From Primula veris (Eukaryota > Streptophyta > Magnoliopsida > Ericales > Primulaceae), in assembly GCA_963682055.1 (NCBI GenBank), contig OY821750.1, forward strand, positions 11,844,501-11,908,500: 64,000 nucleotides of DNA. The letters are read 5' to 3'. Within the stretch, counting starts at the first letter, position 1. Every line of letters begins with the position of its first letter. Shown piece by piece: positions 9,860-55,402 of this stretch. The translations under genes were made by a program, and so were the position numbers. The notes under the pieces are model-generated. The model had not been told where the DNA came from. It made no database searches and saw nothing but the letters and a program-made list of their open reading frames with translations.

Positions 9860-10347
9860 AGGAAAAAATACAATTAGTATACCAAACTATAATGGTGTTA
9901 ACGATTTGAGTATCCACATTTCAAAATTTTCAATTTGGGTACCACACTATAATAACTTTTCAATTTAGGTAACAACGTCTAAATTAATCACGAAATTATG
10001 TAACATGACATTTGAAAAACGTTAATTTGAGAAGTTAATTTGATAATTTTGCACAAAAATATGTTATTATAGAAAAAAAAATTCCCCAATTTCACACATA
10101 ACAAAAATTAGCACATAATCCAAATTTTTGTTATGTGTGAAATTGGGAGAAACTTTTTTCTATGATGACATATTTTTTTACAAAATTGTCAAATTATTCT
10201 CTCAAATTAACGTTTGTCAAATGTCTCGTGACATGATTCCGTGATTAATTTAGACGGTGGTACATAAATTGAAAAGTTATTATAGTGTGGTACCAAAATT
10301 GAAAAATTTGAAAGATAGATACCCAAATCGTTAAAAACAGATAGTTT
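9860..10347. mobile_element. Long foldback MITE, copy 1
   Basis: Almost the whole segment is one imperfect palindrome of about 490 bp. The left arm reads TTAACGATTTGAGTATCC, then TTTGGGTACCACACTATAAT, CCCAATTTCACACATAAC, a short AT-rich centre, and then the reverse complement back to ACCCAAATCGTTAAAAACAG. It has no coding capacity. A second copy lies at 33784-34278 with the same order of landmarks, which shows a dispersed family. The right end lacks a few terminal bases compared with copy 2. Confidence 0.78.
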
Positions 10348-27541: not shown

Positions 27542-28440
27542 ATGTTCAACAACCTCGTTTCCCTTGTTCCTCGGTTCAATGGTGAAAGGTTTGATTATTG
27601 GAGCAATCTAATGAGTTTATGTCTTGAATCTCAAGACCTATGGAGTGTGGTTGAAGAAGGTGTTGGTGCGCCTGACGACGAACCTCAACTCACCACCGCC
27701 AAAAAAGATCTTCTAAAGAACCGAAAGCAAAAGGATAGGAAGGCACTCTTCCAAATTTATCAAGCACTAGAAATTCCTGTTTATGAGAGAATTTCAAAAG
27801 TTTCAAATGCTCAAGAGGCTTGAAAAATATTGGATACGACATATTCGAGACAAGATCAAGTGAAGAAAGTTCGCTTATAATTGTTGCGAGCTGAATTCGA
27901 AAAATTGGAGATGAAAGAAAATGAAAAGATTTTAGAGTACTTTACTCATATCTCTTCCATTATAAACCAAATGGCATCAAATAGAGAAGTCGTAGAGACT
28001 CAAAAATCGGTTGAGAAAATTCTGTGGAGCTTGCAAATTAAATTTGACCATATTGTGGTCGCTATTGAAGAATCAAATGATTTATCTACAATGACACTTG
28101 AAGGTTTGCAAGGAAGATTGGAAGCTCATGAGGCTAGAATTTTGCAGAGAAGTACTCAAGGCGTTTCTTCTCAAGATCAAGCTCTAAAATCCCAATATAC
28201 ATTCACGAAAAGACATGGCTTATCTCGTGGACAAGACAAAGATCGTGGTGGAAAAAAATGATGAATTGAAGAAGGAGGAGAAACCATCATTCTATAAAGG
28301 TAAAGGAAGAAGCACTTACAAAGGTACAAAACCTTACTTTGAGTGTAATTTTTGCCATAAACCTAGACATAAAGAAAATGATTGTTGGGAAAAACATCCC
28401 GGAAAAAAACCGATTTTATGCATAACGAATGTGAGCAATT
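27542..28440 (+). pseudogene. Copia gag
   Basis: It starts MFNNLVSLVPRFNGERFDYW, then LMSLCLESQDLWSVVEEG, the usual Copia gag opening. A coiled-coil region follows (LRAEFEKLEMKENEKILEY), then a zinc knuckle CNFCHKPRHKENDC (CX2CX4HX4C, with Pro where Gly is usual). TGA at about 27822 replaces a Trp, a second stop precedes 27881, and a frame change lies near 28258. Confidence 0.85.
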
Positions 28441-31400
28441 AGAAACTTTGTTGATTGTTTCTGATGGAAATGTTGAAAACATTTGGTACTTGGATAGTGG
28501 AGCAAGTAGACATATGGCGGGTACTAAAAATCTGTTTTCTACTCTTATGGAAACTAACAATGGACTGGTTACCATTGGAGATGCCAAAACTTATAAAATT
28601 CAAGGTGTTGGTGAAATATCTTTCAAAACTAAGACCGGAAGAATCGAGAAAATGTCAGATGTACTTTACGTACCAGGTTTGCGAAGTAACCTTCTCAGCG
28701 TTGATCACTTACTACAGAAAGGATTTGATTTCAAATTTGTTGGAGACATGTGCACCATGAAAAAGAACAATCAACATGTGCCGAAGATTGTTATGGGGTC
28801 AAGTAAATTGTTCCCTCTCAAACTTGATGTTATCAATAGTACGTGTTTTATTGCTACTTCTAATGACGAAGTTTCCAAGTTGTGGCACGATAGGTTTGGA
28901 CATCTGAATTTTCGGAGTTTGAAGGATATGTCCACTAAAGAAGTTGTACAAGGATTGCCCAAAATTGAGGTGATTAATAAAGTGTGCGAGGAATGTCAAT
29001 TGGGAAAGCAACTTCATGAATCATTCCCATCAAAATCAAAATGGCATTCACAATAACCATTGGAGCTTGTTCACACTGATCTTTGTGGACCAATGCAAGT
29101 GCCATCGCTTGGAGGGAGCATGTATTTCTTGTTGTTTGTTGATGATTACACAAGAAAAAATTGGGTTTATTGTGTTAAAGAAAAATCAGAGGTTTTCTCA
29201 TGTTTTAAAGATTTCAAATTTCTAGTTGAAAAATACTCTGGCTTGCAAATAAAGAATTTGAGGAGTGATCGTGGTGGAGAATACATATCTTCTCAGTTCA
29301 AAGTTTTTTGTCGAAATCATGGAATTCGACATGAATTAACAGCCAGGTACTCACCTCAACAAAACGGAGTCGCAGAGCGCAAGAATAGAACAATAATGAA
29401 CATGGTGAGATGCATGTTTAAAAAGAAAAACATGCCTGCGTATTTTTGGGCCGAAGCGGTATCTTGTGCCATTTACCTAATCAACCGATCACCAACGAAG
29501 AACTTGGATGATTCTACTCCAAATGAGGTTTGGTATGGTAAAAAACCGAATGTTTTTCATTTGAAAACTTTTGATTGTCTTGCATTTTCTCACATCCCAA
29601 ATGCTTTGAGATCGAAGCTCGATGATAAATCCGAGAAATGCATTTTCATTGGTTATAGCCAAATAACTAAAGCTCACAAACTTTGCAATCCACAAACGAA
29701 GAAAATTGTGATTAGCGGGGATGTTAGATTTGATGAAAATGGTTGCTATGATTTTTCAGATTCTGCGGAAATGCCTGAATGGCAAACTCTCAATCTTGAA
29801 AAAGAAGAAAACTCTTTGGGACAACATGTAGATGTTGGTGTTGAAATGCAACCTGAAAATAATGGGGGTGAACCACAACAAAATTCACCACCAACGACAA
29901 ATAGAAACACTAGATCTTTGAGAGAGATCTATGATGCAACCGAAGAAATGGCCACAACTGATCACGTATACTTTGCATTCTTTGCGGGAAAAGATCCAGT
30001 CACTTATAATGATGCATCAAAAGATGAAAAATGGGTTCGTGCTATGAATGAAGAAATCAAGTCAATTGAAAAGAATGGTACGTGGGAGCTTACTTCGCTA
30101 CCTTCACACAAATCTACCATTGGTGTGAAGTGGGTGTTCAAGACTAAAACCAATCTTGATGGCTCTATCAACAAGCACAAAGCACGATTGGTTGCGAAGG
30201 GTTACAAGCAAAAAGAAGGCGAAGATTTCAATGAGGTTTTCGCCCCCTATTTCTAGACTTGATACGGTTCGATTGATTATCTCTCTTGCTGCTCAAAATG
30301 GCTGGAAATTATTGCAAATGGATGTAAAATCAGCTTTCTTGAATGGTTTTCTTCAAGATGAAATTTACCTTGAGCAACCTCCCGGTTTTGTAAAGAAAGG
30401 TGAAGAAGAAAAGGTTTATAAGCTACAAAAGGCTTTATACGGGCTGAAGCAATCTCCCCGTGCATGGTATGATCGAATTAATGAATTTTTTTTGAAGTGT
30501 GGTTTTGAAAGATGTCCGTTTGAGCACACTCTTTACGTCAAAAAGAATTCAAAATGAGGCTTCATGATTGTGAGTCTTTATTTAGATGATCTCATCCTTA
30601 CCGGAGATGATGTGGAGATATCAAAATTCAAAAATTCAATGATGAATGAATTCGAGATGACTGATTTGGGAGAACTACATCATTTTCTTGGCATAAATGT
30701 GCAACAATCGAAAGAAGGCATATTTATCTCACAGGAGAAGTATGCAACAAAATTGTTGGAGAAATTCAACATGAAAAATTCAAATCCTGTTTCCACTCCT
30801 TCTATCACAGGTTTGAAATTGAGCAAGAACGGTGAAGGAAAGCTACTGGAACCAACTTTGTTTCGAAGCCTTGTTGGAAATTTGCTGTATCTCACTGCTA
30901 CGAGGCCCGATATCATGTATGTAGTAAGCTTGATTAGCAGGTTTATGGAGAAACATTACTCAAACCATTGGGAAGCTGCAAAAACAATCTTGCGATACAT
31001 CAAAGGAACCATTACTTATGTATTTTCTATGAAGCTCATGTGCCCGTGAAACTTGTTGGGTATACAGACAGTGATTTTGGTGGAAGCATTGATGATTCAT
31101 GAAGCACTCCGGGCTATGCATTTAGCATTGGAAGTGGATTGATATCTTGGTGTTCGAAGAAGCAACCAGTAGTAGCGCTATCTACCACCGAAGCCGAATA
31201 CATCGCAGCATCCTTGGCTGGATGTCAAACTTTATGGCTAAGAGGAATTTTGGAGAACTTGAATTTCAAGAAAAATGATCCTACAACCCTATATTGTGAC
31301 AATAGTTCTACTATTTCAATCTCAAAGGATCCAGTTTTGCATGGAAAAACAAAGCATATCCGTTTGCGATTTCATTTTCTAAGGGATCTTGTTCGTGAAG

Positions 31401-33655: not shown

Positions 33656-33783
33656 GAACACTATTTCTCTAAATATATATTTTTAAGCAACTATAATGAT
33701 ATATATTTGTTTTATATGCATTTCATTGGTGTATAGATATGGCTTGTGCATCCAAAGGTGGAGCCATGCCTTTATAGGGAAAA

Positions 33784-34278
33784 ATTACATTTACTACCCC
33801 AACCTATCTGCGGTTAACGATTTGGGTACTCACCTTTCAAATTTACCAATTTAGGTACCACACTAAATAAATTTTCAATTTAGGTACCACCGTCTTAATA
33901 AATCACGAAATCATGTCACGTGACATTTGACAAACATTAATTTGAGAGGCTAATTTAACAATTTTGCATAAAAATATGTTATCCTAGAAAAATTTTTACC
34001 CCAATTTCACACATAAAAAAATTTAGCATATAATCCAATTTTTTGTTATGTATGAAATTAGGAAAAATATTTTTATAGGATGACATATTTTTATGCAAAA
34101 TTGTCAAATTAGCCTCTCAAATTAATGTTTGTCAAATGTCAAGTGATTTCGTGATTTATTAAGACGGTGATACCTAAATTAGAAATTTATTATATAGTGT
34201 GGTACCTAAATTGGAAAATTTAAAAGGTGGGTACCCAAATCGTTAAAAACAGATAAGTTGGTGTACTAAAACTATAAA
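33784..34278. mobile_element. Long foldback MITE, copy 2
   Basis: It has the same architecture as 9860-10347: terminal AACGATTTGGGTACTCACC, TTTAGGTACCACACTA, TTTCACACATA, a central turn at about 34030, and the mirrored arm ending GGTACCCAAATCGTTAAAAA. The termini extend slightly further than in copy 1 (CCAACCTATCTG and its mirror CAGATAAGTTGG). There is no coding capacity. Confidence 0.8.
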
Positions 34279-39957: not shown

Positions 39958-39962
39958 ACTAA

Positions 39963-40253
39963 TGTAACGACCCGGCCTCACGGATCGAAACGCTACGCCC
40001 GTATCAACAATATTGTCCATTTTGGCACAACTTTTCAGAGAGGTCACCCATCCTGATACTACTCCAAGTTAAGCACGCTTAACTATGGAGTTCCGTCCTC
40101 GCTATTGTGCCGCACGGCTTTAAAAGGCCTTGTTGATAGGAAATGGATTTTTAAGCTCATATACCACACGAGTACTCTCATATCTGGGCGATGTGGGACT
40201 GACGCACAATACCGCACCACAGAATTTCCTTCCTGGAAATCTGGGTCGTCACA
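39963..40253 (-). repeat. Cassandra-like LTR carrying a 5S rRNA-like segment
   Basis: On the minus strand it runs from TGTGACGACCCAG to GGGTCGTTACA (291 bp), TG...CA bounded. Beside its start, on the minus strand, is GGGAGGGTGAT, a polypurine tract of the kind preceding a 3' LTR. The LTR includes CCCACATCGCCCAGATATG and GGACAATATTGTTGATACGG, words typical of Cassandra terminal-repeat-in-miniature elements, plus a 5S-like block. No second copy of this LTR exists in the window. Confidence 0.7.
40038..40098 (-). other. 5S rRNA-like internal promoter segment
   Basis: On the minus strand AACTCCATAGTTAAGCGTGC corresponds to the 5S box A area, and GGAGTAGTATCAGGATGGG plus GGGTGACCTC to the intermediate element and box C. 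It covers only about half of a 5S gene and has substitutions, so it is not a 5S rRNA gene. In Cassandra elements this block can act as a Pol III promoter, and whether it works here is unknown. Confidence 0.7.
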
Positions 40254-40362
40254 ATCACCCTCCCTTTAGGCACGACGTCCTCGTCGGTCACGTCGTCCTT
40301 CAGGGGCTCACACACGTGCTAGTCCCCACATTTCCGGCCCGATAGAGGCTCTGATATCAACT
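40254..40362 (-). other. Polypurine tract, short internal region and primer-binding site
   Basis: On the minus strand, from right to left: AG, then TTGATATCAGAGCC (40360-40347), which is a Met-tRNA primer site with one or two changes; about 80 bp of non-coding internal sequence; and the polypurine tract GGGAGGGTGAT (40264-40254) touching the Cassandra-like LTR. This is the complete short interior expected of a TRIM element. However, a Tekay LTR rather than a second Cassandra LTR borders the primer site. Confidence 0.65.
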
Positions 40363-41225
40363 TGTCACGCCCCAAAATCCATAAAACACGGACAACGAGG
40401 CGTGAACTTTTTAAACAAAAGAATAGATAACCTGTTGGTACAAAATTAAAATTTTAAAAGAAAAACGCTTGCGAGCTAAAGGAACAGTTAATCAATTAAA
40501 TATAAAAGTGTTTGCCAAATGCGGCTACAAGACGAGATAGTTTTGACAATTTTATAAAAGAAAATAAACGAATGTAAATTGCCCGTAGGCTACAACCTCA
40601 AAATTTAATCTAAGTGAAAAGAAAGTGAAAGCCCCGAGCCCATGTGACGCATTGCAATAGCTCCAAACTCTAAACGCCTCAACCAAATTTGTACCTGAAA
40701 GACAAAACTGTAACGGTAAGTCCCACACACATACATAGACGGGACGGCACCTCAAAATACCGTCACTCCATCCCATAAATGCAAGACTCACTACAACAAC
40801 TATGATAGCAACATATAAAAAGAAATAAAATAACGTCGTACAACAAGATAAATTAAATAACTTCAACACACATCTATAGCATACATGGACCTCTCATGCC
40901 ACCTACCCCAGTCCGTAAGATAGGTCATTCCCTATCCACTCGGCCGTCTTCTGTCCCCGGAATTAGGAAGAGACAGAGACCATTGCTAACATAAAAGTAG
41001 ATTTAAAGTGCGCACTTGGACCTCTCATGCCACTCATCCCAGTCCGTAAGACGAGTCATTCCCTATCCCCACGGCCGTCTTCTATCCCCGGAATTAGGAA
41101 GAGACAGAGACCATTGCTAACAGAAAAATAAATAGAGTGCACACTAGGACCTCTCATGCCACTCGCCCCCGTCCGTAAGATGAGTCATTCCCTATCCCCT
41201 CGGCCGTCTTCTGTCCCCGATAAAG
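40363..41225 (-). repeat. Tekay-like LTR, inverted (left)
   Basis: It begins TGTCACGCCCCAAAATCC, the reverse complement of the right LTR end. It contains three tandem units of about 130 bp (CGGCCGTCTTCTGTCCCCGG, each also with CATGCCACTC-type words) at 40895-41220. The U3 start is not precise. In this orientation it would drive transcription leftward, out of the element. Confidence 0.75.
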
Positions 41226-43773
41226 AAATTTCGTCCCGAAATTAGAAAACATCTAAACAAAAGTACCTAAAGAAAGCGCGAGATCAGGATGCTTCCTCTT
41301 CATCTCATCCTCGTGTTCCCAAGTTGCCTCCTCGGCCCCATGGTGTTTCCAAACCACCTTTACCAATCTAATCGTATTTTCTCGAAGTTCCTTCCCTTGC
41401 ACATCGATAATCCTCATAGGTCCCACTTCGTAGGTCACATCCGCACTAACCTCAATGTCCTCAAAGTCCACCATGTGTGAAGGGTCGTGATGATACTTTT
41501 TCGACATTGACACATGGAACACCGGGTAAACTCCCGCCAACTTTGGTGGCAAGTCCAACCGATATGCAACTTCTCAAACTCGGTCCACTATCTCAAATGG
41601 TCCGATAAATCTCGGGATCAACTTCCCTTTAGAGCCAAACTTCATAATCCCCTTCCTTGGCGAAACTCGCAAAAATACTTGATCCCCCTTTTCGAACTCC
41701 AAATGTCTCCTCCTCTTATCCGCATAACTCTTTTGCCTACTTCGGGCCGTCTCAAGCCTTTGTCGAATTAACTTAATCTTTTCTGTCGTCTCTTGAACCA
41801 ATTGCGGTCCTAACATTTCTGCTTCTCCCACCTCGGTCCAACACACCGGAGACCTACACAGCCGCCCATATAAAGCCTCAAAAGGTGCCATGCCAATACT
41901 AGCTTGAAAGCTATTATTATACGCAAACTCCACTAAGGGTAGATGTCTCTTCCAGCCTCCCTTGAAGTCGTTCACACATGCACGTAACATATCCTCTAGC
42001 ACTTGGATAGTCCGCTCCGATTGTCCATCCGTTTGGGGATGAAATGCCGTACTCATTGTCAACTTGGTCCCTAAGACATTTTGCAATGCGCCCCAGAACC
42101 TCGACACAAACCTCGCATCTCAATCCGATACTATCGAAATCGGTACCCCATGAAGTCTAACAATTTCCTTAATATACTTTCGTCCCAAGATTTCCACCAA
42201 ATTTGTCATCTTGATTGGAATGAAGTGTGCGGATTTGGTCAAACGGCCGACCATAACCCACACAGCGTCATTCCCACTTACCGACTTAGGTAAGTTGGTC
42301 ACAAAATCCATTGCTATCCTTTCCCACTTCCATTCCGCCACCGGTAAAGGTTGGAGCATACCCGCTGGCCTTTGGTGTTCCGCTTTCACTTGCTGGCAAG
42401 TTAGACACCTGCTAACATATGAAGCTACATCTTGTTTCATTCTGGGCCACCAAAATTGTCTCTTCGCATCGTGATACATTTTTGTCCCGCCGGGATGAAC
42501 GGCTAGTCGGGAGTGGTGAAACTCCTTTAATACCTCGTTCCTCATGTTTTTTGTCACATAAGTCCTTCCCTAAAATCGTAGACCTCCATTGGTTCCTTTC
42601 ATCCAACCATCTAATCCTTCGCTCGAATGCATCTGTTTCTCATAGTTCTCCACTTTCTCATCTCCATCTTGTGCTTCCAAAACCCTACTCACAAGTTCCG
42701 GTTGTACCACTATCGTATACAAGGTCCCCTCAATAACATTCCCCAACTCTAAGTCGAACTCGTTCACTTTTACCATCATCCTCCATTCCTCGATCGCCAC
42801 ATGCGCTAAGGTCGCATGGGACTTTCGACTCAAAGCATCTGCCACTACATTGGTCTTTCCTGGGTGATAGTGCAAGTCATAGTCGTACTGTTCTAGATAT
42901 TCCATCCATCGCCTTTGTCCCATATTAAGATCACGTTGGGTAAAAATATGCCCTAAGCTCTTGTGATCCGAGAACACTTCAAACTTTTCCCCGAACAGAT
43001 AATGCCTCCATATCTTCAATGCATGAACTATTGCCGCTAGCTCTAGGTCATGAGTCGGATAGTTCTTTTCGTGAATCTTTAATTGTCGCGAAGCATATGC
43101 AATAACCTTTCCGTCTTGCATTAAGACGCAACCCAAACCTTCCTTCGAAGCATCGTAATACACTTGGTAACCCTTCCCTTGCTCGGGAATAACTAGTATG
43201 GGAGAACTAGTCAACCGCTTCTTGAGCTCTAGAAAAGCTTTCTCGCAAGCCTCACTCCACACGAACTTCACCCCTTTCTTGGTAAGGTAAGTCATTGGAG
43301 TTGCCAACTTCGAGAAATCCTTGACGAACCGTCGATAGTATCCCGCTAAACCCAAGAAACTTCGAATCTCGAACACATTTTTCGGTTGTGCACATTCCGA
43401 AACCGCCTCAATTTTCATCGCATCCACCTTTTCCCCTTCTTTCGAGATCACATGCCCAAGAAATTTCACCTCATTTAGCCAAAACTCACATTTGCTAAAT
43501 TTTCCGTAAAGTTGGTGCTCTCTCAACGTGAGCTACGCTAGACGGAGATGCTCCTCGTGTTCCTCTCTTGAACTCGAGTAAATCAGGATATCGTCGACGA
43601 AGACCACCACAAACTTGTCGAGATACTCCTTAAAGATCCGATTCATTAACTCCATAAATGCCGCCGGCGCATTAGTTAACCCGAATGGCATGACCACAAA
43701 CTCATAGTGACCATACCGGGTCCTAAAGGCCGTTTTCGAAATATCCTCATCCTTCACCCTCAATTGCTGATAG
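41226..43773 (-). pseudogene. Inverted Tekay-like pol segment (RT, RNase H, integrase, chromodomain-like end)
   Basis: On the minus strand it begins abruptly inside RT at [20 protein letters not shown] (43773). It runs through [13 protein letters not shown] and [11 protein letters not shown] (active site VDD), [19 protein letters not shown], RNase H ([21 protein letters not shown]), integrase HHCC (HHSRLAVHPGG...CLTCQQVK), [23 protein letters not shown] and a tail with EEATWEHEDEMKRKHPDL. Stops interrupt it at about 43530, 42570, 42118 and 41572. The one at 42570 is shared with the forward arm. It joins the forward leader at 43773 with a few bases of shared sequence (CTAT). Confidence 0.9.
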
Positions 43774-43859
43774 GAATCAAGATGAATAAGTATAGTATTC
43801 ATTTATGAGTAGTAATGTCAAGTGAGACAACTAAAGTGTCGGTTTAATCTGTTGTAGTC

Positions 43860-45155
43860 ATGGCTATTACCACAAGGACTAGTGGACGAGGACCAGCTAC
43901 ACGCGGGGGCACATCACCATCAAGCGGTGCGGCTACCCGAGGTGGGGAAAATGGAAGAGGAAGAAGAGCTCCAAGGGGAAGGGGAGCAACTAGAGGGAGA
44001 AGGGCTGCTAGAGGTCGTGGGGGGAGAGGTAACACTAGGACCCCACCACCTGAGCAACCCGAGGTAGAGGAAGAGGCTGAGAATGTAGATGAGGAGGTGA
44101 ATGAGGAAGAAGAGGAGACATACGCACCTGAACCAGAATCGGTAAATGCTAACCAAGTGATGACCGACCTTCAGAAGGCAGTGCAAATGATGGTGTAGAA
44201 TGCTCAAGCTGGAAGTTCAAGTAGCAATGGATTGCTTAACTTCACTCGATTGGGGGCTCCGACTTTCGATGGGTTAGGCGAACCATCCATAGCTGAGGGA
44301 TGGGTGGACAAAATGGAGAAATACTTATCGGCAACGGGAATAGTAAATGGGGAGCAACGAATGAATATGGCTCAGTTTCACCTAAAGGGTGAAGCACGGA
44401 AGTGGTGGTTGGGAATTGTGGATACATACGATATAAGCAACTTCGAATGGAATGAGTTTATCGAATTATTTAATCGACAGTTTCTTCCAGATTCCTATAA
44501 GGATGAAATGAGGAGGCATTTTGAGGAACTGTATCAAGGGGGTATGACGGTTCAAGCATACCAGCTAAAGTTTACCACACTCTCGAGGTATGCCCCAGAC
44601 TCGGTTTTAGGGGGTGCGGAAAAATGCAGGAGATTCATGAAGGGGTTGAATCCGACCATCTCGTTACAATTGGCATCGGCCCATCATGTCAACTATAATG
44701 AGTTGGTAAAATCAGCTCAAGCTGTGGAGGGGGCTCTACTCCATAACAAGAGAATCTTGGAGAAATCGAAAACCGGAAATGCTCCGAGGGAAGAGAAGAA
44801 GCAGACTTGTGATATGGCGAATAATTCGCATTTTCCACAACAGGGCAGAGGAGAGAGGGGTTTTAATCCAATACCGACAAACGTCATGATGAGGGGAGCG
44901 TGTTTCCACTGTGGAGATGTGAATCATCGACAATTCGAGCGCCCTAGAGACCAATGTTGGACATGCAACCGGTTTGGACATACGGCAAGAGTTTGTACCA
45001 TGGGACAAGGGAGAATCGACACTAACCGGCCTTTTAACCAACCTAGGTTACCACCACCACCACCAAGAGGACCAGAATTTATGCCACAACGCCAATTACC
45101 TGGGAACCAAGGGGGAGGGTTTCGAGGTAACCACCAAGGAGGGGGAAACCGTTGA
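43860..45155 (+). pseudogene. Tekay-like gag
   Basis: MAITTRTSGRGPATRGG opens an Arg/Gly-rich N-terminus. A TAG at 44196 splits it from the gag core (WVDKMEKYLSATGI, FHLKGEARKWW, FELYQGGMTV-type region and YNELVKSAQAVEGA). Two zinc knuckles follow: [14 protein letters not shown] has lost its last Cys, while [14 protein letters not shown] is intact. A Pro-rich stretch and stops at 45153 and about 45214 follow. It lies only about 85 bp from the inversion junction. That 85 bp is the surviving piece of the 5' leader. Confidence 0.85.
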
Positions 45156-45282
45156 AACTACCGAGGAGGCTATCAAGGCCAGGGAAACCGAGGAAATAAT
45201 GGGGGAAATTGAGGACCGCAAGAAAATCCACCAGCTCAAGCTCATCTATTTGCCTTCCCACATCTGCCAAACCAAGGAGATC

Positions 45283-48200
45283 CGACAAATGTACAAGGTG
45301 TGCTCATCTTGGGCACATGTTCTTTTCGATACGGGGGCTTTGCATTCTTTTATATCTAGAAGTCTAGTTGAATCTTTGTCATTAGAAATTGGGGTTCTAG
45401 AGAACCCGATTGTTGTAGAGACTCCTGTTGGGGGTCGAGTTGTGTTGGACCGAGTGTGTCGGTCTTGTGAGATGGTGGTCGCGGAACTCGTGTTTATATA
45501 TGATTTAGTTGCTATAGAGATGTCGGGGTTCGACGTGATACATGGAATGGACTGGTTGGTTCATTTTAACTCTTTCATAAATTGTGTTCGACGAAAAGTT
45601 TTTCTTACAACTTCATCCAGAGATGAGGTGTTCTTTCGTGGAGAAAGGGACGCTACCCTTTCTTCGATTCCTTATTCTTCCAAGTGGGTTGTGGGCAACC
45701 TGTCTTGTATTTTGGCTAGTCTCTCGATAGTGAATAATGACGAGGAAGTGGAAATGTGGCCACGTGTAGTGGACGATTTTAGAGATGTGTTTCCGAAGGA
45801 TCTACCGGGGTTACCACCGAAAAGAGGGTTAGATTTTTCTATCGACTTGGTACCAGGAACGACACCCATAGCCATTTCCCCATACCATTTGGCACCAGCA
45901 GAGTTGAAAGAGTTAAGTAGACAGTTAGAGGAACTGCTAGAGAAGGGGTTTATTAGGCGGAGTACGTCACCGTGGGCGGCACCGACCTTATTCATGCAAA
46001 AGAAAGATGGATCGATGAGAATGTGCATCGACTATCGAAAGATAAATAGGGTGACTATTAAGAATAAGTACCCACTACCTCAAATTGACGATTTTTTGAC
46101 CAACTGAAAGGAGCGACGTTCTTTTCAAAAATCGACTTGCGATCAGGCTATCAGCAATTGAGGGTGAAGGATGAGGATATTTCAAAAATGGCCTTTAGGA
46201 CCCGATATGGTCACTATGAGTTTGTGGTCATGCCATTCGGGTTAACTAATGCGCCGGCGGCATTTATGGAGTTAATGAATCGGATCTTTAAGGAGTATCT
46301 CGACAAGTTTGTGGTGGTCTTCGTCGACGATATCTTGATTTACTCGAGTTCAAGAGAGGAACACGAGGAGCATCTCCGTCTAGCGTTGCTTACATTGAGA
46401 GAGCACCAACTTTACGGAAAATTTAGCAAATGTGAGTTTTGGCTAAATGAGGTGAAATTTATTGGGCATGTGATCTCGAAAGAAGGGGTAAAGGTGGACG
46501 CGATGAAAATTGAGGCGGTTTCGGAATGGGCACAATCGAAAAATGTGTTTGAGATTCGAAGTTTCTTGGGTTTAGCGGAATACTATCGACGGTTCGTCAA
46601 GGATTTCTCGAAGTTGGAAACTCCAATGACTTACCTTACCAAGAAGGGGGTGAAGTTCGTGTGGAGTGAGTCTTGCGAGAAAGCTTTCCTAGAGCTCAAA
46701 AAGCGGTTGACTAATTCTCCCATACTAGTTATTCCCGAGCAAGGGAAGGGTTACCAAGTGTATTGCGATGCTTCGAAGGAAGGTTTGGGTTGCGTCTTGA
46801 TGCAAGACGGAAATATTATCGCATATGCTTCGCAACAATTAAAGATTCACGAAAAGAACTATCTGACTCATGACCTAGAGCTAGCAGCAATAGTTCATGC
46901 GTTGAAGATATAGAGGCATTATCTGTTCGGGGAAAAATTTGAAGTGTTCTCGGATCACAAGAGCTTAGGGCATATTTTTACCCAACGTGATCTAAATATG
47001 CGACAAAGGCGATGGATGGAATATCTGGAACAGTACGACTACGACTTGCACTATCACCCGGGAAAGGCCAATGTAGTGGTGGATGCTTTGAGTCGAAAGT
47101 CCCATGCGACCTTAGCGCATGTGGCGATCGAGAAATGGAGGATGATGGGAAAAGTGAACGAGTTCGACTTAGAGTTGGTTAATGTTATTGAGGGGACCTT
47201 GTACACGATAGTGGTACAACCGGAACTTGTGAGTAGGGTTTTGGAAGCACAAGATGGAGATGAGAAAGTGGAGAACTATGAGAAACAGATGAATTCGAGC
47301 GAAAGATTAGATGGTTGGATGAAAGGAACCAATGGAGGTCTACGATTTTAGGGAAGGACTTATGTGACAGAAAACATGAGGAACAAGGTATTAAAGGAGT
47401 TTCACCACTCCCGACTAGCCGTTCATCCCGGCGGGACAAAAATGTATCACGATGCGAAGAGACAATTTTGGTGGCCCGGAATGAAACGAGATGTAGCTTC
47501 ATATGTTAGCAGGTGTCTAACTTGCCAGCAAGTGAAAGCGGAACACCAAAGGCCGGCGGGTATGCTCCAACCTTTACCGGTGGTGGAATGGAAGTGGGAA
47601 AGGATAGCAATGGATTTTGTGACCAACTTACCTAAGTCGGTAAGTGGGAATGACGCTGTGTGGGTTGTGGTCGACCGTTTGACCAAATCCGCACACTTCA
47701 TTCCAATCAAGATGACAAATTTGGTGGAAATCTTGGGACGAAAGTATATTAAGGAAATTGTTAGACTTCATGGGGTACCGATTTTGATAGTATCGGATCG
47801 AGACGTGAGGTTTGTGTCGAGTACGGCATGTGTGAATGAGTACGGCATTTCATCCCTAAACGGATGGACAATCGGAGCGGACTATCCAAGTGCTAGAGGA
47901 TATGTTACGCGCATGTGTGAATGACTTCAAGGGAGGCTGGGAGAGCCATCTACCCTTAGTGGAGTTTGCGTATAATAATAGCTTTCAAGCTAGTATTGGC
48001 ATGGCACCTTTTGAGGCTTTATACGGGCAGCCGTGTAGGTCTCCGGTGTGTTGGACCGAGGTGGGAGAAGCGGAAATGTTAGGACCGCAATTGGTTCAAG
48101 AGATGACAGAAAAGATTAAATTAATTCGACAAAGGTTTGAGACAGCCCGAAGTAGACAAAAGAGTTATGCGGATAAGAGGAGGAGACCTTTGGAGTTCGA

Positions 48201-48640
48201 AAAGGGGGATCAAGTATTTTTGCGAGTTTCGCCAAGGAAGAGGATTATGAGGTTTGGATCTAAAGGGAACTTGAGCCCGAGATTTATCGGACCATTTGAG
48301 ATAGTGGACCGAGTTGTAGAAGTTCCATATCGGTTGGACTTGCCACCAAAGTTGGGGGGAGTTCACCCGGTGTTCCATGTGTCAATATTGAAAAAGTATC
48401 ATCACGATCCTTCACACATGGTGGACTTTGAGGACATTGAGGTTAGTGCGGATGTGACCTATGAAGTGGGACCTATGAGGATTATCGATGTGCAAGAGAA
48501 AGAACTTCAAGGAAATACGATTAGATTGGTAAAGGTGGCTTAGAAACACCATGGGGCCGAGGAGGCAACTTGGGAACGCGAGGATGAGATGAAGAGGAAG
48601 TATCCTGATCTCACGCTTTCTTTAGGTACTTTTGTTTAGA
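45283..48640 (+). pseudogene. Tekay-like pol (protease, RT, RNase H, integrase, chromodomain-like end)
   Basis: Protease has [12 protein letters not shown] (about 45320). RT opens [20 protein letters not shown] (about 45955), then a 1-bp frameshift at about 46100, [12 protein letters not shown] and [11 protein letters not shown] (46320). RNase H has [11 protein letters not shown] and [11 protein letters not shown]. Integrase has the HHCC region and MDFVTNLPKS. A deletion and frameshift at about 47815-47890 removes the stretch before TIGADYPS. The end is HPVFHVSILKKYHHDPS and EEATWEREDEMKRKYPDL, the chromodomain-like finish of Tekay/Del elements. Other breaks are TAGs at 46911, 47349 (shared with the inverted arm) and 48541. 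Confidence 0.9.
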
Positions 48641-48659
48641 TGTTTTCTAATTTCGGAAC

Positions 48660-49529
48660 GAAATTTCTTTATCGGGGACAGAAGACGGCCGAGGGGATAG
48701 GGAATGACTCGTCTTACGGACCGGGGCGAGTGGCATGAGAGGTCCTAGTGTGCACCCTATTTATTTTTCTGTTAGCAATGGTCTCTATCTCTTCCTAATT
48801 CCGGGGACAGAAGACGGCCATGGGGATAGGGAATGACTCGTATTACGGACTGGGACGAGTGGCATGAGAGGTCCAAGTGCGCACTTTAAATCTACTTTTA
48901 TGTTAGCAATGGTCTCTGTCTCTTCCTAATTCCGGGGACAGAAGACGGCCGAGTGGATAGGGAATGACCTATCTTACGGACTGGGGTAGGTGGCATGAGA
49001 GGTCCATGTATGCTATAGATGTGTGTTGAAGTTATTTAATTTATCTTGTTGTACGACGTTATTTTATTTCTTTTTATATGTTGCTATCATAGTTGTTGTA
49101 GTGAGTCTTGCATTTATGGGATGGAGTGACGGTATTTTGTGGTGCCGTCCCGTCTATGTATGTGCGTGGGAGTCACTGTTATAGTTTTGTCTTTCAGGTA
49201 CAAATTAGGTTGAGGCGTTTAGAGTTTGTAGCTATTGCAATGCGTCACATGGGCTCGGGGCTTTCATTTTCTTTTCACTTAGATTCAATTTTGAGGTTGT
49301 AGCCTACGGGCAATTTACATTTGTTTATTTTCTTTTATAAAATTGTTAAAACTATCTCGTCTTGTAGCCGCGTTTGGCAAACACTTTTATATTTAATTGA
49401 TTAACTATTCCTTTAGCTCGCAAGCGTTTTTCTTTTAAAATTTTAATTTTGTACCAACAAGTTATCTTTTCTTTTGTTTAAAAAGTTCACGCCTCGTTAT
49501 CCGTGTTTTATGGATTTTGGGGCGTGACA
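48660..49529 (+). repeat. Tekay-like LTR (right), with internal tandem units
   Basis: It ends GGATTTTGGGGCGTGACA. The start is uncertain (about 48660, after AATTTCGGAACGAAATTTC). Three direct units start with GGGGACAGAAGACGGCC at about 48675, 48803 and 48935. By eye it is about 95% identical to the inverted left LTR. Its transcripts would run rightward out of the element. Confidence 0.8.
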
Positions 49530-49534
49530 ACTAA

Positions 49535-52729: not shown

Positions 52730-55265
52730 AGTCCACACAGCGTCATTCCCACTTACCGATTTGGTCAAACGGTCGATTACAACCCACACAGCGTCATTCC
52801 CACTTACCGATTTAGGTAAGTTGGTCACAAAATCCATTGCTATCCTTTCCAATTCCATTCCGCCACCGGTAAAGGTTGGAGCATACCCGCCGGGCTTTGG
52901 TGTTCCGCCTTCACTTGTTGGCAAGTTAGGCACTTGCTAACATATGAAGCTACAGCTCGTTTCATTCCGGGCCACCAAAATTGTCTCTTCGCATCGTGAT
53001 ACATTTTCGTCCCGCCGGGATGAACGGCTAATCGGGAGTGGTGAAACTCCTTTAATACCTCGTTCCTCATATTTTCCATCACGTAAGTCCTTCCCTTAAA
53101 TTGTAGTCCTCCATCGGTTCCTTTCGTCCAACCATCTAATCCTTCGCTAGAACTCATCTGTTTCTCATAGCTCTCCATTTTCTCGTCCCCATCTTGTGCT
53201 TTCAGAACCCTACTCACAAGTTCCGGTTGTACCACTATTGTGTACAAGGTCCCCACATTAACATGTCCCAACTCCAAGTCGAACTCGTTTACTTTTCCCA
53301 TCATCCTCCATTCGTTGATCGTCACATGCGCTAAGGTCGCATGGGACTTTCGACTCAAAGCATTCGCCACTACATTGGCCTTTCCCGGGTGGTAGTGCAA
53401 GTCGTAGTCGTATTGTTCCAGATATTCCATCCATCGTCGTTGTCGCATATTTAAATCCCGTTGGGTAAAAATATTCCCTAAACTCTTGTGATCTGAGAAC
53501 ACTTCGAACTTTTCCCCGAACAGATAATGCCTCCATATCTTCAACGCATGAACTATTGCCGCTAGCTCTAGGTCATGAGTCGGATAGTTCTTTTCACGAA
53601 TCTTTAGTTGTCGCAAAGCGTATGCGATAACCTTTCCATCTTGCATTAGGATGCAACCCAAACCTTTCTTCGAAGAATCGCAATACACTTGGTAACCCTT
53701 TCCTTGCTCGGGAATAACTAGTATGGGGGAACTAGTCAACCGCTTCTTGAGCTCTAAGAAAGCTTTCTCGCAAGCCTCACTCCATGCGAACTTCACCCCT
53801 TTCTAGGTAAGGTAAGTCATTGGAGTTGCTAACTTTGATAAATCCTTGACAAACCGTCGATAGTATCCCGCTAAACCCAAAAAACTTCGAATCTCGAATT
53901 CATTCTTCGGTTGTGCCCATTTCAAAACTGCCTCTATTTTTGTCGTGCCCACCTTTACCCCTTCTTCCGAGATCACATGTCCAAGAAATTTCACCTCATT
54001 TATCCAAAACTCACATTTGCTAAATTTTCCGTAAAGTTGGTGCTCTCTCAACGTGAGCAACGCTAAACGGAGATGCTCCTCGTGTTCCTCTCTTGAACTC
54101 GAGTAAATCAAGATATCGTCGATGAAGACCACCACAAACTTGTCGAGATACTCCTTAAAGATCCGATTCATTAACTCCATAAATGCCGCCGGCGCATTAG
54201 TTAACCCGAATGGCATGACCACAAACTCATAGTGACCATACCGGGTCTTAAAGGCCGTCTTCGAAATATTCTCATCCTTCACCCTCAATTACTGATAGGC
54301 TGATCGCAAGTCGATTTTTGAAAAGAACGTTGCTCCCTTCAGTTGGTCAAACAAATCGTCAATTCGAGGTAGTGGGTACTTATTCTTAATAGTCGCTCTA
54401 TTTAGCTTCTGATAGTCGATGCACATCCTCATCAACCCATCCTTCTTTTGCACGAATAAGGCCGGTGCCGCCCACGGTGACTTACTCCGCCTAATAAACC
54501 CCTTCTCTAGCAGTTCCTTTAACTACTTACTTAACTCTTTTAACTCAGCCGGTGCCAATCGATACGGGGAAATGGCTATGGGTGCCGTTTCCGACACCAA
54601 GTCGATAGAAAAATCTAACCCTCTTTTCGGTGGTAAACCCGGTAGATCTTTCGGAAACACATCTCTAAAATCGTCCACTACGCTTGGCCACGTTTCCACT
54701 TCCTCGTTGTTATCCACTATCGAAAGACTAGCCAAAAGACAAGACAGGTTGCCCATAACCCGCTTGGAATAATAAGGAATAGCAAAAAGGGTAGCGTCCC
54801 TTTCCCCACGAAAGAACACCTCATCTCCGGCTGAAGTTGTAAGGAAAATTTTTCGTCGAACACAATCGATGAAAGAGTTGAAATGAACCAACCAGTCCAT
54901 TCCAAGGATCACGTCGAATCCCGACATCTCGATGACAACTAAATCAAACGTAAATGAGTGGTCCGCGGCCATTATCTCACAAGATCGACACACTCGGTCC
55001 AACACAATTCGACCCCCAACAAGAGTCTCTACAACAATCGGGTTCTCCAGAACCCCAACTTCTAACGACAAGGACTCAACTAGACATCTAGATATAAAAG
55101 AACACGAAGCTCCCGTATCGAAAAGAACATGTGCCCAAGACGAGCACACAAGAACCATACATTGTATATTTGACGGATCTCCTTGGTGTGGCAACTGTGG
55201 TAAGGCATATAAACGAGCCTGAGCTGGTGGATTTCCTTGCGGTCCTCGATTTCCCCCATTATTTC
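52730..55265 (-). pseudogene. Truncated Tekay-like pol (third copy)
   Basis: From right to left on the minus strand: protease ([15 protein letters not shown]; cleanest of the three), RT ([30 protein letters not shown]), RNase H ([21 protein letters not shown]) and the integrase HHCC region ending near MDFVTNLPKSVSGNDAVW. It is cut at both ends and has no LTR. A 51-bp stretch containing CACACAGCGTCATTCCCACT is duplicated at the left edge (52738 and 52788). Only a few stops are present (about 54520, 54290 and 53803). At the site where both arms of the chimera have a stop, this copy reads GGLQFKGRTYV, which shows the ancestral state. Confidence 0.9.
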
Positions 55266-55402
55266 CTCAGTTATATCCGAGTACCTTACGCACGGTATGT
55301 TGGTGAAGGTCGATATACCAAAATACTAAAAATCCGGATAAACCTCAAGGTTTATTGAATCCAGAATCTGTACTTCGATCTCCGAGAGCAGTGTTGATAA
55401 CG
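55266..55402 (-). other. Copia-like leader with primer-binding site
   Basis: On the minus strand ACACGTTATCAACACTGCTC adjoins the LTR end, like the CGTTATCAGCACGA primer site of some plant Copia elements. The leader runs leftward and stops at the junction with the truncated Tekay copy. Confidence 0.5.

Follow-up and report, generated by a model that had tools for sequence, protein, structure and literature searches.

In reverse transcription, transfer of plus-strand strong-stop DNA at the primer binding site (PBS) is the normal second strand transfer; a summary of this step is part of the excerpts of PMC10886601. The TRIM element Cassandra, as portrayed in excerpts of PMC10853983 and PMC7215508, carries a 5S-like LTR, a Met-type PBS and a polypurine tract but no coding region, and its autonomous partner is called unknown in passages of PMC10886601 and PMC7215508. 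For complex LTR elements surrounded by one 5-bp duplication, Sabot and Schulman (2007) put forward template switching in reverse transcription and insertion by integrase (PMC1950507). Within the limited scope of titles and abstracts of open-licence papers, no palindromic insertion with two U5 ends was described and no Cassandra helper was named.

Here, we analyzed a window of 64,000 nt of Primula veris (assembly GCA_963682055.1, contig OY821750.1, positions 11,844,501-11,908,500, forward strand). Coordinates without a prefix are window positions.

A palindromic chimera, apparently inserted as one piece

The unit at 39963-49529 (9,567 bp) is a real palindromic chimera, the result of one insertion and apparently of one pre-formed piece. 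Its structure, based on the assembly sequence, is composed as follows.

39958..39962, + strand: left target-site duplication, ACTAA
39963..40253, - strand: Cassandra-type LTR, 291 bp, U5 (3') end outward
40254..40267, - strand: Cassandra polypurine tract (read by eye)
40268..40347, - strand: remainder of the Cassandra internal region
40348..40362, - strand: PBS (40348-40359) and spacer AGT (40360-40362), the Ty3-type LTR/Cassandra join
40363..41219, - strand: left-arm Ty3-type LTR remnant, 857 bp, overlapping the deletion junction
41214..41219, - strand: left-arm CGGGGA, joint of the U3/polypurine-tract deletion
41214..43773, - strand: left arm with integrase, RNase H and RT, inverted (inverted-repeat alignment, Pfam)
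43771..43773, + strand: loop junction with the 3-nt micro-homology TAG (by eye against the C5 and C8c leaders)
43774..46147, + strand: single-copy loop with leader, gag, protease and RT start (Pfam for domains)
46148..48678, + strand: right arm from RT to integrase, ending in a polypurine-tract stub (inverted-repeat alignment, Pfam)
48673..48678, + strand: right-arm CGGGGA, joint of that deletion
48673..49529, + strand: right-arm LTR remnant, U5 end (GGGGCGTGACA) outward
49530..49534, + strand: right target-site duplication, ACTAA
51358..51941, + strand: paralogous host repeat showing the empty site, diverged

Both termini of the unit are 3' (U5) ends of LTRs facing outward, Ty3-type on the right and Cassandra on the left. 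With the ends fixed by the LTR termini, the perfect agreement of the flanking ACTAA copies (39958-39962 and 49530-49534) has a chance probability of 0.0016. When joined at ACTAA, the flanks align across the joint to the paralogous repeat (421 of 596 columns). The pair of U5 ends, the perfect match of the target duplication and the empty site seen in the paralogous repeat together argue for the insertion of one pre-formed palindromic chimera. This supports what a sequence-only reading of the window had proposed. Its descriptions of a 9.57-kb unit within a perfect ACTAA duplication, of two outward U5 ends from different LTR families, and of a 3.4-kb inverted repeat (RT to LTR) around a 2.4-kb loop all held, the latter by alignment and Pfam.

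The inverted repeat (40362-43773/46148-49530) covers 3,412 columns with 95.5% identity. After refinement to 40363-43773 and 46148-49529, the arms show 128 mismatches over the 3,382 sites compared (3.8%), and 29 nt fall into two gaps. The resulting K2P divergence of 0.039 would correspond to ~1.5-2.8 million years at rates of 1.3e-8 and 7e-9.

Within the unit, Pfam recognised pieces of gag, protease, RT, RNase H, and integrase in Ty3/gypsy order, integrase following RNase H; the Chromo match at the integrase end is weak (19.4 bits versus a cut-off of 25.1, E 0.001). We refer to the element as a putative "Tekay-like" Ty3/gypsy chromovirus, a name that stems from the sequence-only reading. A protein search with gag retrieved just 5 distant matches, all from Primulina and 25-29% identical, and viral contigs gave none; a genome-contig search yielded 5 loci (41-69% identical). 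In that search, Ty3-type pol pieces with 61-69% identity to those of the window came up within bacterial genome assemblies (L001, L002, L003, and L005), probably representing contamination. Elsewhere in the window, two copies of a ~480-bp repeat (33778-34270 and 9861-10347) are each self-inverted (86% and 84%), and 28382-30256 holds two long reading frames, Copia-like by eye.

The Cassandra piece at the left end

Read on the minus strand, the left end consists of the Ty3-type LTR end, AGT, the PBS, 94 bp including the polypurine tract, and the 291-bp LTR. The sequence-only reading had recognized a Cassandra-like 5S LTR here. The 5S-type LTR was retained, and the Cassandra piece had to be extended by PBS, spacer, and internal region. 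The 5S-like stretch (40019-40115, minus strand) matches RF00001 with 21.5 bits (E 0.056), below the Rfam gathering score of 38; the box A and box C words match this region exactly, and the PBS (40348-40359) has one mismatch to the initiator-Met word. With a 5S-like promoter region, a Met-type PBS, a polypurine tract, and a 94-bp non-coding internal region, the left 400 bp have the composition of Cassandra, except that two own LTRs do not surround the internal region, the 5' LTR being replaced by the Ty3-type LTR. The last 11 bases of both LTR types agree at 9 positions. PBS-like words (≤2 mismatches) in the 5' part of the unit are the Cassandra PBS and one within the Cassandra LTR. A PBS at the loop start was considered and dropped, since no such word (≤2 mismatches) is present near 43774.

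Shared deletion and kinship of the arms

Compared with the copies C8c, C9, C5, and C8a, both arms lack 1.3-1.7 kb, a segment with the bulk of U3 and one half of the polypurine tract; the CGGGGA deletion joint was placed by eye against four other copies. The deletion junction (30 nt, ≤3 mismatches) had two matches in 436,532,582 bases, one per arm, and the reversed control had none. In a pol tree of six copies, the arms are sisters (100/100). At derived sites where the other copies agree, 24 changes are common to the arms, 36 are left-only and 49 right-only, and a stop common to both arms occupies a position at which 4/4 other pol copies carry lysine. When only the terminal 520 bp of the LTR are compared, the sister relationship of the arms is weak (82/54), and their distances to the LTR at C9:34051139 (0.023 and 0.033) are slightly smaller than the distance between the arms themselves (0.035). 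Judged from these alignments, both arms probably derive from one source molecule.

Arm-specific changes relative to a third copy are balanced (25 left and 28 right, over the 1.5 kb of that copy) and look neutral (35 nonsynonymous, 15 synonymous, 3 stop; expected 64/30/6% with self-chosen weights). As the differences of the third copy to the arms (71 nonsynonymous, 14 synonymous, 5 stop) also show no synonymous excess, this codon test cannot separate post-insertion from inherited change. This pol family has another copy in the window, partial and inverted, at 52758-55272, with 92% identity to the left arm over 1.5 kb; as the source of the arms it was dropped, because it lacks the stop that they share.

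Recurrent joins between Ty3-type LTR ends and Cassandra

The sequence-only reading had raised a genome search for both internal junctions as a way to see whether this form has multiplied. The loop junction at 43773 has one match in the assembly, and the palindrome as a multiplied form was therefore dropped; LTR::PBS::Cassandra joins of the 40362 type are recurrent. The chimera is thus not the one-off event it had been taken for: at 22 loci, the PBS links Cassandra to a Ty3-type LTR end. A query spanning the junction of LTR and Cassandra gave six other full-length matches (86-90% identical) and a nearly full one among the best 40 of 2,895 candidates. A junction pattern matched 21 times in the assembly (control: 0). 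All 20 matches examined represent a Ty3-type LTR end joined to Cassandra, and the letters of the remaining one (C1:6326670) resemble Cassandra's own LTR. Two joins missed by the pattern (C9:29918695 and L116) complete the total.

The Cassandra PBS/internal word is present 694 times in the assembly. In a sample of 40 out of the 57 matches listed on C1 and C2, the sequence upstream of the PBS was Cassandra's own LTR in 38 cases, a Ty3-type LTR end in one (L116), and unrecognised in one (L114), a sample that understates Ty3-type joins because the 17 left out (in or near loci covered elsewhere in the analysis, or mostly tandem neighbours) include the known junctions C2:10607617 and C2:25619031. 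Two further Ty3-type joins (L041, the same locus as L079, and L048, the same as L076) and one unrecognised upstream sequence (L049) appeared among 43 Cassandra rows picked by likeness to the window. At L049 and L114, neither Cassandra's own LTR nor a recognised Ty3-type LTR end precedes the PBS, and L034, L035, and L036 are Cassandra arrays, both tandem and inverted.

Beyond the window's family, the joined LTRs form the groups L074/L077/L078 (85-96% alike), L075/L076/L080/L083 (89-95%), and L079/L081/L084 (87-91%), which are called Ty3-type by their LTR ends and not by pol genes; the first two groups are 69-75% alike. The LTR similarity of L082 is confined to a short end, and L073 has a different upstream sequence and a truncated Cassandra. 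Behind the Cassandra piece the 22 loci diverge. Its LTR end borders sequence without recognised element similarity in nine (window, C5, C8d, C8e, C11 hybrid, L079, L081, L083, and L084), a second PBS and Ty3-type leader follow in four (C8b, C9, L074, and L077) and a second Cassandra in another four (L075, L076, L078, and L080), two switch or are deleted into a Ty3 element (C8a and C8c), and three are truncated or unfollowed past this point (L073, L082, and L116).

Other copies of the window's LTR (20 of 38 non-window matches, from the best 40 of 1,978 candidates) continue into a PBS and ordinary leader in 6 cases, into other DNA in 14, and into Cassandra in none. On this count, we dropped the idea suggested by C9 and C8b that Cassandra is a fixed part of the family's leader. 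C8b itself (C8:10449334-10458805; L020, L021) is a young chimera. Its LTRs are 99.84% identical over 1,889 bp, its flanks read GGAAG/GGAAG, the Cassandra piece lies between the 5' LTR and the element's own PBS, and no frame of 150 aa was found in its interior. At C12:14841455-14844166 (L082, L126, L081), two LTR-end/PBS/Cassandra stretches are inverted ~1.9 kb apart (400 bp, 92.75%), each with its Cassandra part facing away from the other; this may be a palindrome that ends in Cassandra at either side.

Four of the 22 join loci are units with two U5 ends, namely the window unit, C5, C8d, and C8e; all were found via the Cassandra junction, so that palindromes without Cassandra would be missed. 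C5 (C5:24404904-24411244) has a Ty3-type U5 end on one side and a Cassandra U5 end on the other, a 284-bp inverted LTR stretch at 96.8%, an LTR longer than that of the window, and the flanks GCAGT/GCAAC (3/5). In C8d, an inverted 48-nt piece of U5 (one mismatch, read by eye) is followed by U5-PBS-Cassandra (flanks GTGTG/GTATG), and C8e (C8e:13422797-13425699) has an inverted LTR, a gag piece, ~25 nt of U5 end, PBS, and Cassandra (flanks TATAG/TATAA). Flanks agree at 16 of 20 positions over the four units (P ~2e-6) and at 11 of 15 without the window (P ~3e-4). The C11 hybrid (C11:7579916-7582608) is a non-inverted LTR-PBS-Cassandra element with a perfect GTTCT duplication, a form that plus-strand strong-stop DNA transferred onto a Cassandra minus strand would give. 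For L079 and L083, no second flank copy before a TG start was found in ~3 kb upstream, and for L084 none was present among the matches listed.

The joins likely arose recurrently rather than in one old event, as judged by three comparisons: LTRs of the chimeras fall into different subfamilies, further LTR groups have the same join, and the window's LTR has relatives that are followed by an ordinary leader. In a Cassandra tree, 8 rows labelled chimeric were ungrouped (6 changes; a single change in 0% of 200 bootstrap trees), in a poorly resolved topology with 27 of 37 inner branches open, starred branches forcing one change and 53 of 500 shuffles as low; the label omitted the C11 hybrid, L041, and L048.

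Proposed origin in reverse transcription

Starting from the observed final structure, its duplication, the deletion shared specifically by the arms, the junctions, and the related joins, we read the unit as the fossil of one faulty reverse transcription, still integrated, and assign this reading a probability of roughly 0.6. In a first step, reverse transcription of a Tekay-like element would jump between two CGGGGA words, and the resulting minus strand would lack one half of the polypurine tract together with most of U3; alternatively, the deletion could already have been present in the parent. Normal plus-strand priming would be unavailable to such a strand, owing to these missing parts. The minus strand would then halt in the leader, ~1.3 kb short of the PBS if the C9 leader is typical, and its 3' end would fold back, pair at TAG in the RT gene and prime a copy of the strand that runs back across integrase, LTR, and U5 and on into the tRNA primer. 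As this fold-back would use up the strand's 3' end and leave no PBS complement for the normal second transfer, that of a partner would be needed. In a third step, the copied PBS would anneal to its complement, in which a Cassandra minus strand ends. From there, synthesis would add the Cassandra internal region and LTR as far as the U5 end; the Cassandra strand, elongated in the opposite direction, would turn the hairpin into a linear duplex. Finally, integrase would join the two U5 ends to the target, creating the 5-bp duplication.

Palindrome and chimera may accordingly share one cause. Since a cDNA without the tract would have no U3 end, only the two-U5 form would be insertable here; C5, which keeps a longer LTR, shows that tract loss is no general requirement for this form. 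The sequence-only reading had left template switch and self-integration side by side as routes during reverse transcription. Support for an origin in reverse transcription comes from the join to Cassandra exactly at the PBS, the deletion confined to the two arms and three comparable units elsewhere; self-integration is not needed to explain the unit. Against the fold-back speak its micro-homology of only 3 nt, a strand ending short of its natural end, the weak sister relationship of the arms in the terminal LTR with C9:34051139 slightly closer to each of them, and C5 with its longer LTR and flanks that agree at only 3 of 5 positions.

A rival reading is a template switch in trans, in which one of two minus strands, from one lost parent or from near-identical elements, was primed on the other. 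Such a switch would yield the same end product, two templates would be available if a lost parent had the deletion, and C8d, where the 48-nt inverted U5 meets the longer U5 at TTTTG (by eye), would be easier to obtain with two strands. It requires, however, a lost parent with a deletion found only in the window unit, and we regard it as unlikely. A variant derives the Cassandra end from a parent whose leader contained Cassandra, with priming at its second PBS. Elements of this kind exist (C8b, C9), but the window's LTR subfamily would need such a leader, and the next-best junction match is 90% (best 40 of 2,895 candidates).

Co-insertion of two cDNAs, contributing one U5 end each, by one integrase complex with host repair joining the inner ends would likewise account for the pair of U5 ends, the single duplication, and the 3-nt micro-homology at the junction. 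The deletion and 24 derived sites common to the arms count against it, one inner end would have to fall in RT, and no result requires this route, which makes it rather improbable. Ordinary nested or neighbouring insertions that were later inverted or recombined, a process said to produce most complex elements (PMC1950507), are a very remote candidate, as they would not be expected to give the C11 hybrid, nor a paralogous empty site together with one perfect duplication that exactly borders the ends of two different LTRs. An assembly artefact is scarcely credible given the 128 differences in 3,382 arm sites, unlike a read-palindrome artefact, and the regular duplication and empty site.

A candidate Cassandra helper and comparison with known systems

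The window unit is one of a group of chimeras and was most likely born in reverse transcription. As sequence evidence, these chimeras suggest Tekay-like elements as the Cassandra helper; they can suggest this, not settle it. A broader proposal, to which we give slightly less than even odds, is that Tekay-type Ty3 elements are Cassandra helpers sharing RT complexes and integrase, with PBS-joined chimeras involving several LTR groups and fold-back repeatedly yielding two-U5 palindromes that integrase can insert. If true, integrase can insert two-U5 cDNA and a U3 end would not be strictly needed. The larger value lies in the PBS-joined chimeras, which name a candidate helper for Cassandra and make the helper question testable.

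Compared with described systems, the left 400 bp of the unit share with the Cassandra TRIM the 5S-like LTR, Met-type PBS, polypurine tract, and non-coding nature, and differ by the 5' LTR swapped at the PBS for a Ty3-type LTR and by the non-Cassandra opposite end. With Ty3/gypsy chromoviruses the unit has in common the order gag, protease, RT, RNase H, and integrase, its chromodomain match being weak and below the Pfam cut-off; in contrast to them, it has neither a 5' LTR nor a U3 end, is internally inverted, and has a broken polypurine tract and frames that carry stops. Its join lies exactly at the PBS, as in plus-strand strong-stop transfer, but here the transfer would have acted between molecules of two families. 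Like the elements of Sabot and Schulman, the window unit has one target duplication around the whole complex; whereas in those the repeats are direct, the LTR in the middle is shared and the outer LTRs are highly similar (PMC1950507), the window unit is inverted, with outer LTRs of two families, both presenting U5 outward.
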